From positions 1 through 5,242 of the forward strand of contig JABJCF010000601.1 in assembly GCA_018665625.1 (NCBI GenBank): a stretch of DNA of 5,242 bases. Reading direction: 5' to 3'. The notes under the pieces were generated by a model. It was not told the DNA's origin and did not search any database. It worked only from the letters and a program-made list of their open reading frames with translations. The position numbers and the translations under genes were made by a program. Source of the stretch: Nitrospina sp. Lineage in GTDB: Bacteria; Nitrospinota; Nitrospinia; Nitrospinales; VA-1. Numbering within the stretch: the first letter of the stretch is position 1; the number at the start of each line of letters is the position of its first letter. This document shows positions 1-5,242 of this stretch, one piece after another.

Positions 1-1629
<1,629 letters not shown>

Positions 1630-1633
<4 letters not shown>

Positions 1634-2418
1634 GCCATTACCCTCTTTTGTAAGGATTCATTTATCGCGATAAAGGAGTCGTTTTTCATATGATGGATAT
1701 GGTAGGTCATGGGTTGTTGTTTTTCTGCCCACAAAACTTTACCCCCCGCCTCTTCAATTATACATTGTCCCGCCGCCACGTCCCAGAGCATAGTCGGTCC
1801 GAAGCGGGGATAGATGTCCACTAAGCCTTCAGCCACATAGGCTAATTTAAGGGCTGAACCTGCCTGGAGCATGTTTCCTTGATGCTTATTGACTATCTTT
1901 TTGGTTTGCTCATCCAGATGAGAACGACTGACCGCAAAGGTCAAGCTCGCAGGATCTTGGGGTTTGACTTTGATTGGCAGTAATTCATTTTCACCCTCTT
2001 GTTTAAAGGCACCCTCACCCTGGGCTGCGGCGTAGGTGATGTCTTTTGCAGGCACACCGATCACACCCAGGATGGCTTGCTGGTTCTGGATCAGGGCAAT
2101 ATTGACGGTAAACTCGTCATTTTTTTTGATGAACTCTTTGGTACCGTCCAGGGGATCGACACACCAGAAGCAGGCATTCTCATCTGCTAATTTGAAGGTG
2201 TCGACTGACTCTTCCGAGAGGATCGGAATGTCTGGATACAGTCGGTTTAACTCATCACAAATCAGGTGATGCGAGGCCAAGTCGGCTTCCGTTAAGGGAC
2301 TTTGGTCTTCCTTGTACTCAACTGTAAAATCTCTCTGATAAATTTCCATGATCGCCTCCCCCGCTTGTTTGGCGATGGCAATCACCTTGTGCATGTCTTG
2401 TAAACTTAGTTTAATCAT
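1630..2418 (-). CDS. cysQ: 3'(2'),5'-bisphosphate nucleotidase (PAP phosphatase)
   Basis: Member of the inositol-monophosphatase superfamily, CysQ subgroup. It removes the 3' phosphate from adenosine 3',5'-bisphosphate (PAP), the by-product of PAPS-dependent sulfotransferases and PAPS reductase, and may also hydrolyse PAPS. The 262 residues are close to the usual CysQ length. Visible motifs are DQSPLTEADLASH (38-50), ILSEES (66-71), the metal-binding CVDPLDGTKEFI (86-97) with Asp88, Asp91 and Thr93, and WDVAAGQCIIEEAGG (212-226) with the distal metal ligand Asp213. The 'PLDGTKEF' form is typical of CysQ rather than SuhB-type inositol monophosphatases. The ATG at 2418 overlaps the cysC stop as ATGA, with AAGGCG about 7 bases upstream, and the gene ends in the same kind of 4-bp overlap with manC. 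Its place beside cysC in a sugar-nucleotide operon suggests that it recycles PAP during polysaccharide sulfation rather than serving cysteine synthesis alone. That role is inferred. Confidence 0.93.
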
Positions 2419-2996
2419 AGGATCGCCTTCACAATCAAGTCCACCGCTTGGTCCACGGAAAGATGTTGAGTATTCAGTTTAATCTCTGGGGCTTCCGGTT
2501 GCTCATAAGGTGAATCAATACCAGTAAAATCTTTGAGCTCGCCTGCTCTGGCTTTTTGGTAGAGGCCTTTAACATCACGTTTTTCACATTCGGCGAGTGA
2601 GGTGGAGAGGTAGATCTCCTTGAACTGATTCGGTCCAAACAAACTTCTCGCATGCTCCCGTTCAGCCTTGAGAGGGGAGATCAGCCCCACAATCACAATC
2701 AGCCCGGCGTCCACCATAAGTCTCGCTGCCTCGGCTGCACGGCGGACGTTCTCATTTCGGGCTTCCATCGTAAAGCCAAGGTCGGCATTCAGTCCTTGCC
2801 TTAAATTATCCCCGTCAAGGATGTAGGTGTGTCGGCCTAATGCATTGAGTTTGACTTCGAGGGCATTGGCCAGGGTGGATTTCCCTGAGCCGGACAGTCC
2901 AGTCATCCAGAGGCAGAGCGGGGTCTGATCTTTAATCTTCGCCCGATCCGTCTCGGTCAATTTAAAATTTTGCCACTGAGTATTAAGGCTCTTCAT
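2415..2996 (-). CDS. cysC: Adenylyl-sulfate (APS) kinase
   Basis: Phosphorylates adenosine 5'-phosphosulfate at the 3' position with ATP to give PAPS, the activated sulfate used by sulfotransferases and by PAPS reductase. At 193 residues it is a stand-alone APS kinase without a fused sulfurylase. Motifs are the P-loop GLSGSGKST (33-41), DGDNLR (61-66), DLGFTMEARNENVRR (72-86), ISP (106-108) at the family's conserved serine, and the APS-binding lid GLYQKARAGELKDFTGIDSPYE (144-165). The ATG at 2996 lies 27 bp after the regulator's stop. No strong Shine-Dalgarno lies close to it, and the best purine run (AAAGGA) is about 25 bases away, so the start is chosen from family alignment (WQNFKLTETDR...). 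The stop overlaps cysQ by 4 bp. No ATP sulfurylase (cysDN or sat) is present here, so APS must come from elsewhere. With cysQ it forms a PAPS-making and PAP-clearing pair, which points to sulfation of the locus product by inference. Confidence 0.95.
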   Translation of the reverse strand: MKSLNTQWQNFKLTETDRAKIKDQTPLCLWMTGLSGSGKSTLANALEVKLNALGRHTYILDGDNLRQGLNADLGFTMEARNENVRRAAEAARLMVDAGLIVIVGLISPLKAEREHARSLFGPNQFKEIYLSTSLAECEKRDVKGLYQKARAGELKDFTGIDSPYEQPEAPEIKLNTQHLSVDQAVDLIVKAIL

Positions 2997-3023
2997 GGTG
3001 TGAGATAACCCATTCTCAATCCT

Positions 3024-3368
3024 TTAAGCCTCATCATGCAGTTCCTCGGATAGGCTGTCAATTTCACGCTTTAGCTGGTTGTACTCTTGTCTTTTGCGTT
3101 TCAAAAAATCAATCGCCAGTTGAGACTTTTGTTTAATGCCCTCCGGGGTTAAGAGGTAGAGGTACACGGATTTATCGGGGTTGCTCTTGAAGTTGCCCGC
3201 CTTGAGCCAGCCCTTAAGGGTCAACGCCTTGAGGCAGTAGTGCATGGAGCCCAGGCTGATGCCCGCCTGCTTGGCGAGTTCACGCTGACTGATGTCGGGG
3301 TTCTTGTGGATCAGGTTCATGACCCTAAAGTGGGTGTCGGGGTGCTGGATCTTGGTTGTCGTATTCAT
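3024..3368 (-). CDS. EPS-associated MarR-type winged-helix transcriptional regulator
   Basis: Small DNA-binding protein of 114 residues. The N-terminal two-thirds is a winged helix: FRVMNLIHKNPDISQRELAKQAGISLGSMHYCLKAL spans residues 14-49, with the helix-turn-helix at about 26-48, then a wing with NFKSNPDKSVYLYLLTPEGI (59-78). The C-terminal part (about 86-111, KRKRQEYNQLKREIDSLSEEL) is charged and looks like a short coiled coil, presumably for dimerisation. The SQRELA, GISLG, YCLKAL, GW and YLLTPEGI pattern matches, from memory, the NCBI family 'MarR family EPS-associated transcriptional regulator' (TIGR04176), found in exopolysaccharide loci. It is shorter than classical MarR proteins (about 140 residues) and has no obvious ligand-pocket helices. 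It is first in the leftward operon, 27 bp from cysC, with an ops-like element just upstream. The ATG at 3368 has no recognisable Shine-Dalgarno. It probably controls its own operon and perhaps the divergent wzz unit. Whether it represses or activates cannot be read from the sequence. Confidence 0.88.
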   Translation of the reverse strand: MNTTTKIQHPDTHFRVMNLIHKNPDISQRELAKQAGISLGSMHYCLKALTLKGWLKAGNFKSNPDKSVYLYLLTPEGIKQKSQLAIDFLKRKRQEYNQLKREIDSLSEELHDEA

Positions 3369-3386
3369 GTTAATTCACGCTTTGGG

Positions 3387-3398
3387 CACGCTGCCGCC
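3387..3398 (-). promoter_or_regulatory. ops-like (RfaH recruitment / JUMPstart core) element in the leader of the leftward operon
   Basis: Read on the minus strand this is GGCGGCAGCGTG, which differs from the enterobacterial ops sequence GGCGGTAGCGTG at one base (position 6, T to C). It lies 18 bases upstream of the regulator's ATG, in the same orientation as the operon and downstream of the candidate promoters, where ops elements normally sit. In E. coli the ops element pauses RNA polymerase and recruits RfaH, which then suppresses termination through long polysaccharide operons. An RfaH-like gene is present at 4848 in the divergent arm, which makes the match much more meaningful than it would be alone. 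The substituted base is one that I recall RfaH contacts directly in E. coli, so the local protein may have a shifted preference. Confidence 0.7.
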
Positions 3399-3414
3399 CT
3401 ACCGGGTGCATCGC

Positions 3415-3420
3415 AGTATA
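3415..3420 (-). promoter_or_regulatory. Candidate -10 box (TATACT) for the leftward operon, alternative 1
   Basis: TATACT on the minus strand matches five of six bases of the sigma-70 -10 consensus. No convincing -35 lies 16-18 bp upstream, where the sequence is AT-rich (GCTTAA at 17 bp). If used, transcription would start near 3408 and the ops-like element would lie only about 10-21 bases into the transcript. Confidence 0.35.
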
Positions 3421-3447
3421 GAAAAAAATTTAACATTTTAAGCCTTC

Positions 3448-3461
3448 GTTCAATATTGAAC
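3448..3461. promoter_or_regulatory. Perfect 14-bp palindrome, candidate operator
   Basis: GTTCAATATTGAAC is a perfect inverted repeat with no spacer, in the intergenic region between the divergent regulator gene and wzz. It is 79 bp from the regulator start and 116 bp from the wzz start. Perfect AT-centred palindromes of this size are typical binding sites for dimeric winged-helix regulators, and the divergently placed MarR-type protein is the obvious candidate ligand. The site overlaps a possible -10 box for the leftward operon, which would fit autoregulation. The assignment to this regulator is inference. Confidence 0.55.
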
Positions 3462-3480
3462 ACTTAAATGGTAATCTCAA
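3452..3480 (-). promoter_or_regulatory. Candidate sigma-70 promoter for the leftward operon, alternative 2, overlapping the palindrome
   Basis: On the minus strand TTGAGA (3475-3480, 5/6 to the -35 consensus) is followed after exactly 17 bp by AATATT (3452-3457, 4/6 to the -10 consensus). The -10 box lies wholly inside the 14-bp palindrome at 3448-3461, so a protein bound there would block this promoter. Initiation would be near 3445. That gives a leader of about 77 bases with the ops-like element some 48-59 bases into it, a more natural distance than alternative 1 gives. Confidence 0.35.
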
Positions 3481-3490
3481 ACTCACGCTT

Positions 3491-3519
3491 TTGCAACACT
3501 ATATAAGTATAAATTTAAT
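3491..3519 (+). promoter_or_regulatory. Candidate sigma-70 promoter for wzz-rfaH-like unit
   Basis: TTGCAA (3491-3496, 4/6) is followed after 17 bp by TTTAAT (3514-3519, 5/6). An alternative -10 within the same stretch is TATAAG (3502-3507, 5/6), but it has no good -35 partner. The whole stretch 3500-3520 is AT-rich, as expected upstream of an operon. With the alternative -10, the transcript would start near 3514 and carry the entire downstream hairpin. With the first, it would start within the left arm of the hairpin. Confidence 0.35.
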
Positions 3520-3520
3520 A

Positions 3521-3552
3521 AATTGCAGCCACATAAAAAGGCGGCTACAATT
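3521..3552 (+). repeat. Leader inverted repeat (10-bp arms, 12-bp loop) upstream of wzz
   Basis: The left arm AATTGCAGCC (3521-3530) and right arm GGCTACAATT (3543-3552) are reverse complements except for one pair (C opposite A). They are separated by 12 bases and followed after AAG by TTTTT (3556-3560). This resembles a weak intrinsic terminator or attenuator hairpin placed 26 bases before the wzz start codon. The loop and right arm contain GGCGGCTAC (3540-3548), which begins with the same GGCGGC as the ops-like element on the other strand. Function is not established from sequence. A simple operator is the main alternative. Confidence 0.4.
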
Positions 3553-3577
3553 AAGTTTTTAAATCATTTAATCCACT

Positions 3578-4780
3578 ATGGCTAATCAACAGCAAAAAAC
3601 AAGAACGACTAAACAAACCCACTCTGATGATGAGATTGACTTATTTGAGCTGTTACACTTTTTAGTAAAAGGTGCACGCTATTGGCTGTCGGGTGGCTTG
3701 ATCTTGGGTTTGTTGGCTGTCATCTATGCGTTAGCCCTGTATCCTTCCACCTATCAGCAGCAGACCATCAATGATATTGGGCTCAATCAGGAAAGCCTCC
3801 GCTTAGTCCGCCAAGTTATGCCAGCGATGACGGTGCCGTTAGAGGATAGGATGCAGACCCAGGGGCTAGAAAAACTTTTTGAGAAAATCACTAAAGGGGG
3901 TGCAGATTTTTTAGGCGAGACGGTTTTGGGGTTATCGGGGGTGGACATAAAAGATAAATCGCTTGACCAGCCGGCCAAAGAAAAAGTAGAAACGGTAGCT
4001 ATCAGCCTCAAGGGGGATGATCAAGATCTGGCGATGCGTGAGATAGATTTTATTCGAAATAACATCAGGGGGGTTTCACAGTATCTGACAGTCAAAAAAT
4101 ACCTCGATAACCAGATCATCAATGCAAGAATTAATCTTTTTAACAGCGAGGCTGAGGTGAATGGGCAGCAGCTCAACTATGAGCGTGCGTCGCGCCAGCT
4201 CCTTACCTACCAAGCCCTACAAAAGAAGTCGAATCAAGTGAAGGACCTACAAATTATCCTCAACTTATCAAATACAGAAGTGACTCTAGGTGATAAAGGA
4301 AAATTAAACAATATCTCTGAGTTTTCTGGTGCAAAGTATCTGCCGCTCGGCAATCGTATTGTCGCACTCGAATCAGAGATGGCTGATCAACTGGAGGCTG
4401 TGCGGATTTCCCAGTTACAGATCGAGGCGCTCAAGTTGTCGCAAAAGGTGCTCAATGACTTGGTGGTCACCTTTAACGCGACCCCCTACCAAGGTGATGT
4501 GATAGACTTCTCGCCGATGATTCAGTTGGTTCAAGACTACCGACAACAAAAGGCAGATTACACCCGGGAGGAAGTTGCCGCCCTGGATGGCTTAGAGCGG
4601 AAATTGATCGACTTTGATCGAAGAGAATTCAGGTTTACCAATAGCCTGCCCATGATAGTTGAAAAAAAAGGCCGCCTATTTATGGTTTTAATTAGTGGCT
4701 TCATCGGGGCGTTCTTAGGGTTTTTGTTGTATACGATTAAGAGCTTTGTCAATGTTTATAGTCGACGCTATAAAAATTAG
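3578..4780 (+). CDS. Wzz/PCP-type polysaccharide chain-length determinant protein
   Basis: Inner-membrane polysaccharide co-polymerase that governs the length of a polymer made by a Wzy-type polymerase. The 400 residues have the family layout. A short cytoplasmic N-terminus with the Wzz-type stretch DDEIDLFELLHFLVKGARYW (17-36) is followed by the first membrane helix at about 37-56, a long periplasmic domain (about 57-365) and a second membrane helix at about 367-387 (LFMVLISGFIGAFLGFLLYTI). A basic cytoplasmic tail (YSRRYKN) ends the protein. The periplasmic part is rich in charged helix (about 178-225 and 255-300). There is no C-terminal tyrosine kinase domain or Walker motif, so it is not a Wzc-type autokinase. 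The usual proline-rich motif before the second helix is reduced to a single Pro358, which is somewhat atypical. The ATG at 3578 lacks a Shine-Dalgarno, and the start is chosen because the N-terminal Wzz motif follows directly. It is 67 bp upstream of the RfaH-like gene and probably co-transcribed with it. Whether it serves O-antigen, capsule or EPS cannot be told. Confidence 0.88.
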   Translation: MANQQQKTRTTKQTHSDDEIDLFELLHFLVKGARYWLSGGLILGLLAVIYALALYPSTYQQQTINDIGLNQESLRLVRQVMPAMTVPLEDRMQTQGLEKLFEKITKGGADFLGETVLGLSGVDIKDKSLDQPAKEKVETVAISLKGDDQDLAMREIDFIRNNIRGVSQYLTVKKYLDNQIINARINLFNSEAEVNGQQLNYERASRQLLTYQALQKKSNQVKDLQIILNLSNTEVTLGDKGKLNNISEFSGAKYLPLGNRIVALESEMADQLEAVRISQLQIEALKLSQKVLNDLVVTFNATPYQGDVIDFSPMIQLVQDYRQQKADYTREEVAALDGLERKLIDFDRREFRFTNSLPMIVEKKGRLFMVLISGFIGAFLGFLLYTIKSFVNVYSRRYKN

Positions 4781-4847
4781 TCGACATCTTGATCAAAGCA
4801 TTTAACTACAAGCCCCAGGATAACCAAAACAAAATACAAAAAAACTC

Positions 4848-5242
4848 ATGGCCTGGTTAGTAGTTTATACAAAATCTCAAAAGGAAACCTTAGCGCATGA
4901 CCATCTTGAACGGCAGGGGTTTTTACCCTATTGCCCTATGCTTAGAAAAGAAATTAAATATAAATCAAAAACTAAGATTAAGAGCCTTCCCCTCTTCCCC
5001 CGTTATATCTTCATACAAGCAAATGAAATAGCCTCAAAAAAAATCCATTTAATAAGATCCACTGTGGGGGTCAGTAGCCTTATCTTGAGGGATGGCAAGC
5101 CTATCTATGTCAAGGATGAGATTTTAGATGCTATAAGGCATGCAGAGAAAGTATATTTAGGGCAGGTTGAGACCTTATTCAATGCTGGCGATAGAGTCAT
5201 CATCAATGAGGGCATTTACAAGGATATCGAGGCAATCTATCA
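4848..5242 (+). CDS. RfaH-like specialised NusG paralogue (transcription antiterminator), cut by window end
   Basis: Elongation factor of the NusG/Spt5 family that binds RNA polymerase and allows transcription through long polysaccharide operons. The visible 131 residues begin MAWLVVYTKSQKETL and show HLERQGF (19-25), YCPM (28-31), PLFPRYIFI (48-56), RSTVGVSSLI (70-79) and the start of the KOW region, NAGDRVIINEGIYKDIEAIY (112-131). These blocks align with E. coli RfaH as I remember it (YLLYCKRG, EHLERQ, APM, PLFPNYLFV, ATRGVSHF, GDKVIITEGAFEGFQAIF). The DNA-facing His and Arg of the HLER motif are kept, while the Arg after the conserved Thr is Val here. General NusG is unlikely, because its longer insertion and usual neighbours (secE, rplK) are absent. 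The ATG at 4848 is the first start after an in-frame stop at 4821, and no Shine-Dalgarno is visible. Five of its seven arginines use AGA or AGG, more than in wzz (about 6 of 22). The sample is small but may hint at a different history. The likely target is the ops-like element at 3387-3398. Confidence 0.9.
   Translation, partial: MAWLVVYTKSQKETLAHDHLERQGFLPYCPMLRKEIKYKSKTKIKSLPLFPRYIFIQANEIASKKIHLIRSTVGVSSLILRDGKPIYVKDEILDAIRHAEKVYLGQVETLFNAGDRVIINEGIYKDIEAIY

Follow-up and report, generated by a model that had tools for sequence, protein, structure and literature searches.

A probable ops element beside a linked RfaH-like gene in a MarR_EPS-led polysaccharide locus

We analysed a 5,242-nt stretch of DNA from Nitrospina sp. 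(contig JABJCF010000601.1, positions 1 to 5,242), referred to here as the window, and found a close match to the ops element in the leader of a polysaccharide operon, near a gene for an RfaH-like NusG paralogue. In E. coli, ops is a short stretch of DNA through which the elongation factor RfaH is loaded onto RNA polymerase, and the RfaH-ops pair and the JUMPstart element are classical in enteric bacteria. We think it probable that the 12-mer and its flanks are a genuine ops (the core of JUMPstart) of a linked ops-MarR_EPS-RfaH polysaccharide module, and that RfaH loads there and suppresses polarity in the operon. The basis for this is the sequence of the element, its position, its beyond-chance resemblance to sites in relatives, and its co-occurrence and frequent linkage with RfaH.

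The window has a G+C content of 44% and is laid out in two divergent arms, with the following features.

1..213, minus strand: partial gene, presumably gmd, GDP-mannose dehydratase (named from the ORF translation, not from a family scan)
203..1633, minus strand: manC, mannose-1-phosphate guanylyltransferase / mannose-6-phosphate isomerase (family scans)
1630..2418, minus strand: cysQ, 3'(2'),5'-bisphosphate nucleotidase (family scans)
2415..2996, minus strand: cysC, adenylylsulfate kinase (family scans)
3024..3368, minus strand: MarR_EPS regulator, gene 1 of the operon, 114 aa (TIGR04176, 141.2 bits, above the cut-off of 88)
3384..3406, minus strand: extended ops CCCGGTAGGGCGGCAGCGTGCCC (CGGYAG before and CC after the core are common to part of the relatives)
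3387..3398, minus strand: ops core GGCGGCAGCGTG, T6>C relative to E. coli ops (pattern search, leader comparison, 30-nt model)
3448..3461, no strand assigned: palindrome GTTCAATATTGAAC, candidate MarR_EPS operator (comparison of leaders for GTTCA-N4/5-TGAAC)
3578..4780, plus strand: Wzz-like chain-length protein of the divergent arm (PF02706, 23.0 bits, under the cut-off of 25.5)
4848..5242, plus strand: RfaH-like NusG paralogue of the divergent arm (best NCBIfam model RfaH; ends at the window edge, at residue 131)

The original prediction called for a near-perfect ops in the minus-strand leader before the first gene, and this is what we found. GGCGGCAGCGTG is identical to E. coli ops GGCGGTAGCGTG at 11 of 12 positions, the sole mismatch being T6>C, and the core ends 18 nt ahead of the MarR_EPS ATG (3368), on the sense strand, in the leader of MarR_EPS-cysC-cysQ-manC-gmd. 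The RfaH-like NusG paralogue predicted in the divergent arm from 4848 is also there, with RfaH as its best model, and the predicted factor-target spacing of about 1.5 kb came out at about 1.45 kb, measured from the ops core to the start of the ORF. The MarR_EPS of the window is 89% identical to a protein of Methylophilaceae bacterium Uisw_097, the first named relative among the matches listed.

GGCGGCAGCGTG is an exact fit to the pattern GGCGGYAGCGTG, and no other site in the window comes within 2 mismatches. As evidence against chance this loose count is weak, with 0.25 such sites expected and at least one found in 42 of 200 shuffles. We also built a weight matrix from 15 relatives' sites lying ahead of MarR_EPS or near RfaH (the window was excluded and L189, almost identical to L188, was omitted; three of the 15 came from G004 and G002, genomes that are also inside the scanned sets). 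The window site scored 28.5; the runner-up in the window reached 4.2, and none of 518,700 shuffled positions exceeded 13.7. When the flanks were scored without the 12-mer, 4 of the 518,700 did as well as the window site. Sharing of the flanks is only partial, because 7 of the 15 relatives, small-genome ones among them, scored 1 or less on their flanks when left out in turn. A 30-nt model made from the 15 sites had one match in the window, which was the ops site (18.2 bits, E=1.3e-5). The window ops site resembles the relatives' sites beyond chance.

We also scanned for the 12-mer elsewhere. The original prediction took its placement to be non-random, and in the first 31 genomes listed (0.7-1.4 Mb) it occurred twice, both times ahead of MarR_EPS, with none for the reversed control. 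In the larger genomes of the same scan, the 12-mer, its C6 form included, was also found away from MarR_EPS. Such stray copies and the 42 of 200 shuffles are what can be said for a chance 12-mer in a short G+C-rich stretch. Because of the flank score (4 in 518,700) and the E value of the independent model (1.3e-5) that explanation is very unlikely, the element also being in the right place and on the right strand, and we give it next to no credence.

The CGGTAG of the core has a near-repeat 8 nt further upstream in the window and in several relatives (exact in L192, CGGCAG or CAGTAG elsewhere), as if part of ops had been duplicated upstream of the core.

For relatives we turned to 187 genomes from the family of G003 (Methylophilaceae), 60 of which had a MarR_EPS match. 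The leader set comprised 62 MarR_EPS loci from 59 genomes (64 places, less a weak match in G051 and a second fragment in G006), each searched from 300 nt upstream to 40 nt downstream of the MarR_EPS start. Conservation of the 12-mer across related loci held in part: it was kept, at 0-1 mismatches, in 9 of the 62 leaders, the RfaH-bearing subset, while the other 53 had at least 2 mismatches. RfaH scores in the family were bimodal, with 12 genomes at 131 bits or more and all other listed matches at 69 or less; we read the latter, from their sequence scores, as probable housekeeping NusG. Among the 59 MarR_EPS-bearing genomes, RfaH was present in 7 of the 9 with ops vs 1 of the 50 others (p=8e-7), or, when the variant site of G164 was excluded, in 6 of 8 vs 2 of 51 (p=1.6e-5).

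The exceptions run both ways. No RfaH was found in two genomes with ops (G001 and G118). G159, G023 and G034 have RfaH yet no ops in the stretches fetched, and G186 has RfaH but MarR leaders without ops, with an exact ops 3.3 kb from its RfaH. Ops and RfaH are both missing from G019, which has the closest MarR_EPS (70%) among the 187 family genomes. GGCGGYAGCNTG was present within 1 mismatch in 6 of 41 loci; one of the six, in L005, overlaps the start codon and was not taken as ops.

Co-occurrence (7 of 9 vs 1 of 50) and linkage in the relatives both bear out the linked ops-RfaH polysaccharide module that had been proposed. The distance from ops to RfaH was 0.1-3.3 kb in L192, L196, L200, L195 and L197, in tandem or divergent as in the window; in G003 and G033 the two share a contig at distances of about 30 and 39 kb. 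As the original prediction expected, the 12-mer precedes polysaccharide genes in relatives: MarR, manC and gmd lie downstream of it in L209, and manC follows directly in L195. In L192 a sugar dehydrogenase, epimerases and an ABC transporter are downstream of ops, and an SLBB export-like gene and wzz precede rfaH.

The module is not confined to one family. We scanned 250 genomes from the order of G002 (Gallionella; 30-nt model at E<=0.01) and 369 from the class of G004 (Gammaproteobacteria; model at E<=0.003), with RfaH at E<=1e-27 in both. The order scan found ops in 22 genomes, at 23 places, and 16 of these places had MarR_EPS and/or RfaH within 1.5 kb; the 15 genomes holding those 16 places all carry RfaH. 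Overall, RfaH was carried by 16 of the 22 ops genomes vs 9 of the 228 others (p=2e-14). In the class scan the figures were 35 of 37 vs 44 of 332 (p=1e-24). That scan gave 48 ops places, 18 of them without a locus, and MarR_EPS and/or RfaH lay within 1.5 kb at 20 of the 30 loci examined. These p-values are guides only: the genomes come without completeness estimates, and related ones are not independent. RfaH without ops at the thresholds used was seen in 9 genomes of the order and 44 of the class. The ops-MarR_EPS-RfaH polysaccharide module is therefore one that recurs across genomes. In G004 there are three MarR_EPS copies (L188, L189, L190), each with its own ops, which account for three of the four GGCGGYAGCGTK matches genome-wide.

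These scans also bear on whether the linked RfaH uses the element at all. It might act in cis only on its own wzz arm, loading co-translationally with no ops, while ops serves some other, unlinked RfaH encoded in the same genome. Ops-independent cis loading has been proposed for linked, non-autoinhibited RfaH (PMC13015549, available part), and the window clade is without E48. We find this explanation unlikely, since ops and RfaH are no more than 2 kb apart in 7 genomes of the order and 18 of the class (rfaH is upstream in tandem in 22 of the 25), and a single RfaH match at E<=1e-27 is listed in 24 of 25 RfaH genomes of the order and 79 of 79 of the class. However, in G201 and G321 tblastn turned up an additional RfaH-like fragment adjoining ops. 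Linkage, moreover, does not hold everywhere: in the order sample both were on one contig in 10 of the 16 genomes with ops and RfaH, and in G002 they were 514 kb apart.

Returning to the module and to the factor of the window, RfaH (TIGR01955) is still the best model for the fragment at 100.8 bits, which is below the equivalog score of 144.5. Its full-length homologues P0121 and P0126 reached 126.0 and 129.0 bits, also under 144.5, and by model P0121 scored 126 bits with RfaH, 67 with UpxY and 29 with LoaP. Residue E48 is required for RfaH autoinhibition. The window and nine close homologues have L in its place; among the locus-derived rows, five small-genome relatives have K, S or T and the other eight have E. 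In E. coli, E48A makes RfaH ops-independent (PMC13015549, available part). We ran AlphaFold2 from shallow alignments (29 and 14 rows; no E. coli control) and both P0121 and an E48-bearing relative were predicted with a beta KOW. Because the proteins with and without E48 both came out beta, the prediction does not discriminate the E48 state and we dropped it as a test of autoinhibition.

The base at position 6 counts against the window site. If ops is defined by the full GGCGGTAGCGTG core including T6, the site falls outside the definition (11/12, C6). E. coli RfaH takes up the flipped-out T6 in a pocket formed by H20, R23, Q24 and R73, and T6A ranks with the most severe in vivo defects for this factor (PMC5995543, available part). 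Base 6 is T in 9 of 9 Methylophilaceae MarR_EPS-leader sites, in a search that allowed C or T, and in the 15 training sites it is T in 14 and A in one. Since the 30-nt model, R1, leans on T6, the T6 in its hits is uninformative on C6, and only the leader scan that allowed either base informs. From these observations it is possible, though we rather doubt it, that the module is real in relatives and the window copy is decayed or weakened, C6 having removed the base read by RfaH so that polymerase would pause and RfaH be recruited poorly. Against such decay, the core is unchanged at its remaining 11 bases, much of the flank is preserved, and the factor keeps K10, H20, R23 and Q24 of the ops-contact residues, so that a pocket accepting C is possible. 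The defect reported in the available part of PMC5995543 is for T6A, not T6C. We infer that C6 is tolerated by the RfaH of the window and keep the functional ops as our preferred reading.

The remaining contact residue, R73, is V in the window. Of 29 aligned relatives, 28 are without R73 (the exception is L022), as are 12 of the 13 locus-derived ones. We considered that C6 co-varies with R73V and dropped the idea, since relatives without R73 keep T6.

Folding the free 12-mer paired positions 2-4 with 9-11, the same for T6 and C6, which is not the published C3:G8 hairpin. The fold of the bare 12-mer was equalled by 13 of 200 shuffles (T6) and 54 of 200 (C6). C3 and G8 are both present in the site. 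We dropped a claim that folding shows the C3:G8 hairpin (loop G4-A7), since another register was obtained. In L192, L194 and L206, CCGCCC lies about 20 nt ahead of ops and could base-pair with the GGGCGG in the ops region, which may thereby be masked in the leader RNA.

Most MarR_EPS leaders carry a second element. In 54 of the 62 loci, the 200 nt ahead of MarR_EPS contain GTTCA-N4/5-TGAAC (0 of 62 for the reversed control), and from this pattern it is probably the operator of the MarR_EPS family. The spacing is N5 in 46 loci, where the palindrome mostly lies 5-35 nt before the MarR_EPS gene; the window and 8 loci have N4. In the window and in five of the eight strict ops loci, ops separates the N4 palindrome from the gene, which starts about 80-113 nt further on; the strict ops loci without a palindrome are those of G118, G139 and G154. 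With this arrangement, MarR_EPS would control initiation in the window and RfaH would control elongation. The palindrome is also overlapped by a weak promoter-like match (3452-3480, minus strand). Matches of this kind are not enriched (2 in the search vs 1.1 in shuffles).

We also weighed whether the element acts as RNA or as a site for another protein (an attenuator hairpin, the MarR_EPS operator or a plain NusG pause) and not via RfaH. GGGC and GCCC around the core can pair, if weakly, and ops is also a consensus pause (PMC5995543, available part). Since the element tracks RfaH presence across genomes, the likely MarR_EPS operator is a different palindrome, and 53 of 62 MarR_EPS leaders do without an ops within 1 mismatch, we consider an RfaH-free role highly improbable.

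At the window leader, we infer pausing, a hairpin, RfaH recruitment and antitermination, in the following order. RNA polymerase would start near the candidate MarR_EPS operator and pause in the leader at ops, with the element exposed in the non-template strand. The RfaH-like protein made from the neighbouring wzz-rfaH arm would then load at ops and displace NusG, and would carry the polymerase, probably plus a ribosome, through the long operon.

Compared with known systems, the window resembles enterobacterial RfaH-ops (JUMPstart) in having a 12-nt core in a polysaccharide leader and a NusG paralogue in the same genome. Points of difference are the linked rfaH, MarR_EPS as gene 1 of the operon, a window clade that has lost E48, and C6 in the site. 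The original prediction rightly contrasted enterobacterial rfaH, which is unlinked to its targets and acts in trans (PMC7593976, available part). The operon-encoded NusG paralogues UpxY, LoaP, TaA and ActX are similar in that the paralogue lies beside or inside its target operon; the window has ops, whereas the recruitment of linked paralogues such as these is called unknown in the available part of PMC7593976. Wang et al. describe RfaH clusters near EPS genes, one of which (CL4) adjoins an HTH regulator gene as here, and the available part of their paper does not mention ops beside the CL4 genes (PMC7593976). Monomorphic linked RfaH also adjoins an LPS operon, but there ops-independent loading in cis is argued and an ops next to the gene is likewise not mentioned (PMC13015549, available part), and a review presents a cis-recruitment model in which DNA recognition is late (PMC7819879, available part).

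JUMPstart was recorded for Gammaproteobacteria by Weinberg et al. (PMC2864571, available part). The window has the GGGCGGUAGCGUG core of the Rfam JUMPstart family (RF01707) but gave no match to the model (gathering threshold 35), and of 25 relatives' loci only L079 gave a hit, at 24.6 bits and so under the same score. Nearer relatives were not found among viral contigs with MarR_EPS, and a 30-base query had no match in phage records. At title and abstract level, we found no description of ops beside MarR_EPS or linked RfaH in a search that mostly left out the subscription literature.

RfaH-ops and linked NusG paralogues are already known, and the new part is the conserved ops adjoining linked RfaH genes. 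Tentatively, and leaning somewhat against it ourselves, we suggest that linked, MarR_EPS-led RfaH-ops modules are a widespread and perhaps ancestral form, in which the factor is made beside its loading site and some lineages, the window's included, are without the E48 lock that forces ops dependence. If this is true, ops would predate the move of RfaH to distant targets and not follow it, which contradicts the published view of late DNA-contact residues and of early factors loading in cis without them. A recurrent ops beside linked RfaH is a concrete candidate for the recruitment signal of operon-linked NusG paralogues and makes the recruitment step testable. Nature supplies factors with and without E48 and factors that lack R73, as well as a site with C6, and the 30-nt model predicts RfaH targets genome by genome.

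Two further observations concern the arms themselves. Inside the one operon (window 1-3368) G+C drops from about 0.51 in MarR and cysC to 0.41 in manC and 0.37 in the partial gmd, and the operon is perhaps of mosaic origin. In the leader of the wzz-rfaH arm there is a terminator-like inverted repeat at 3521-3552, with a T-rich tail on either strand, which could attenuate the arm that encodes RfaH.
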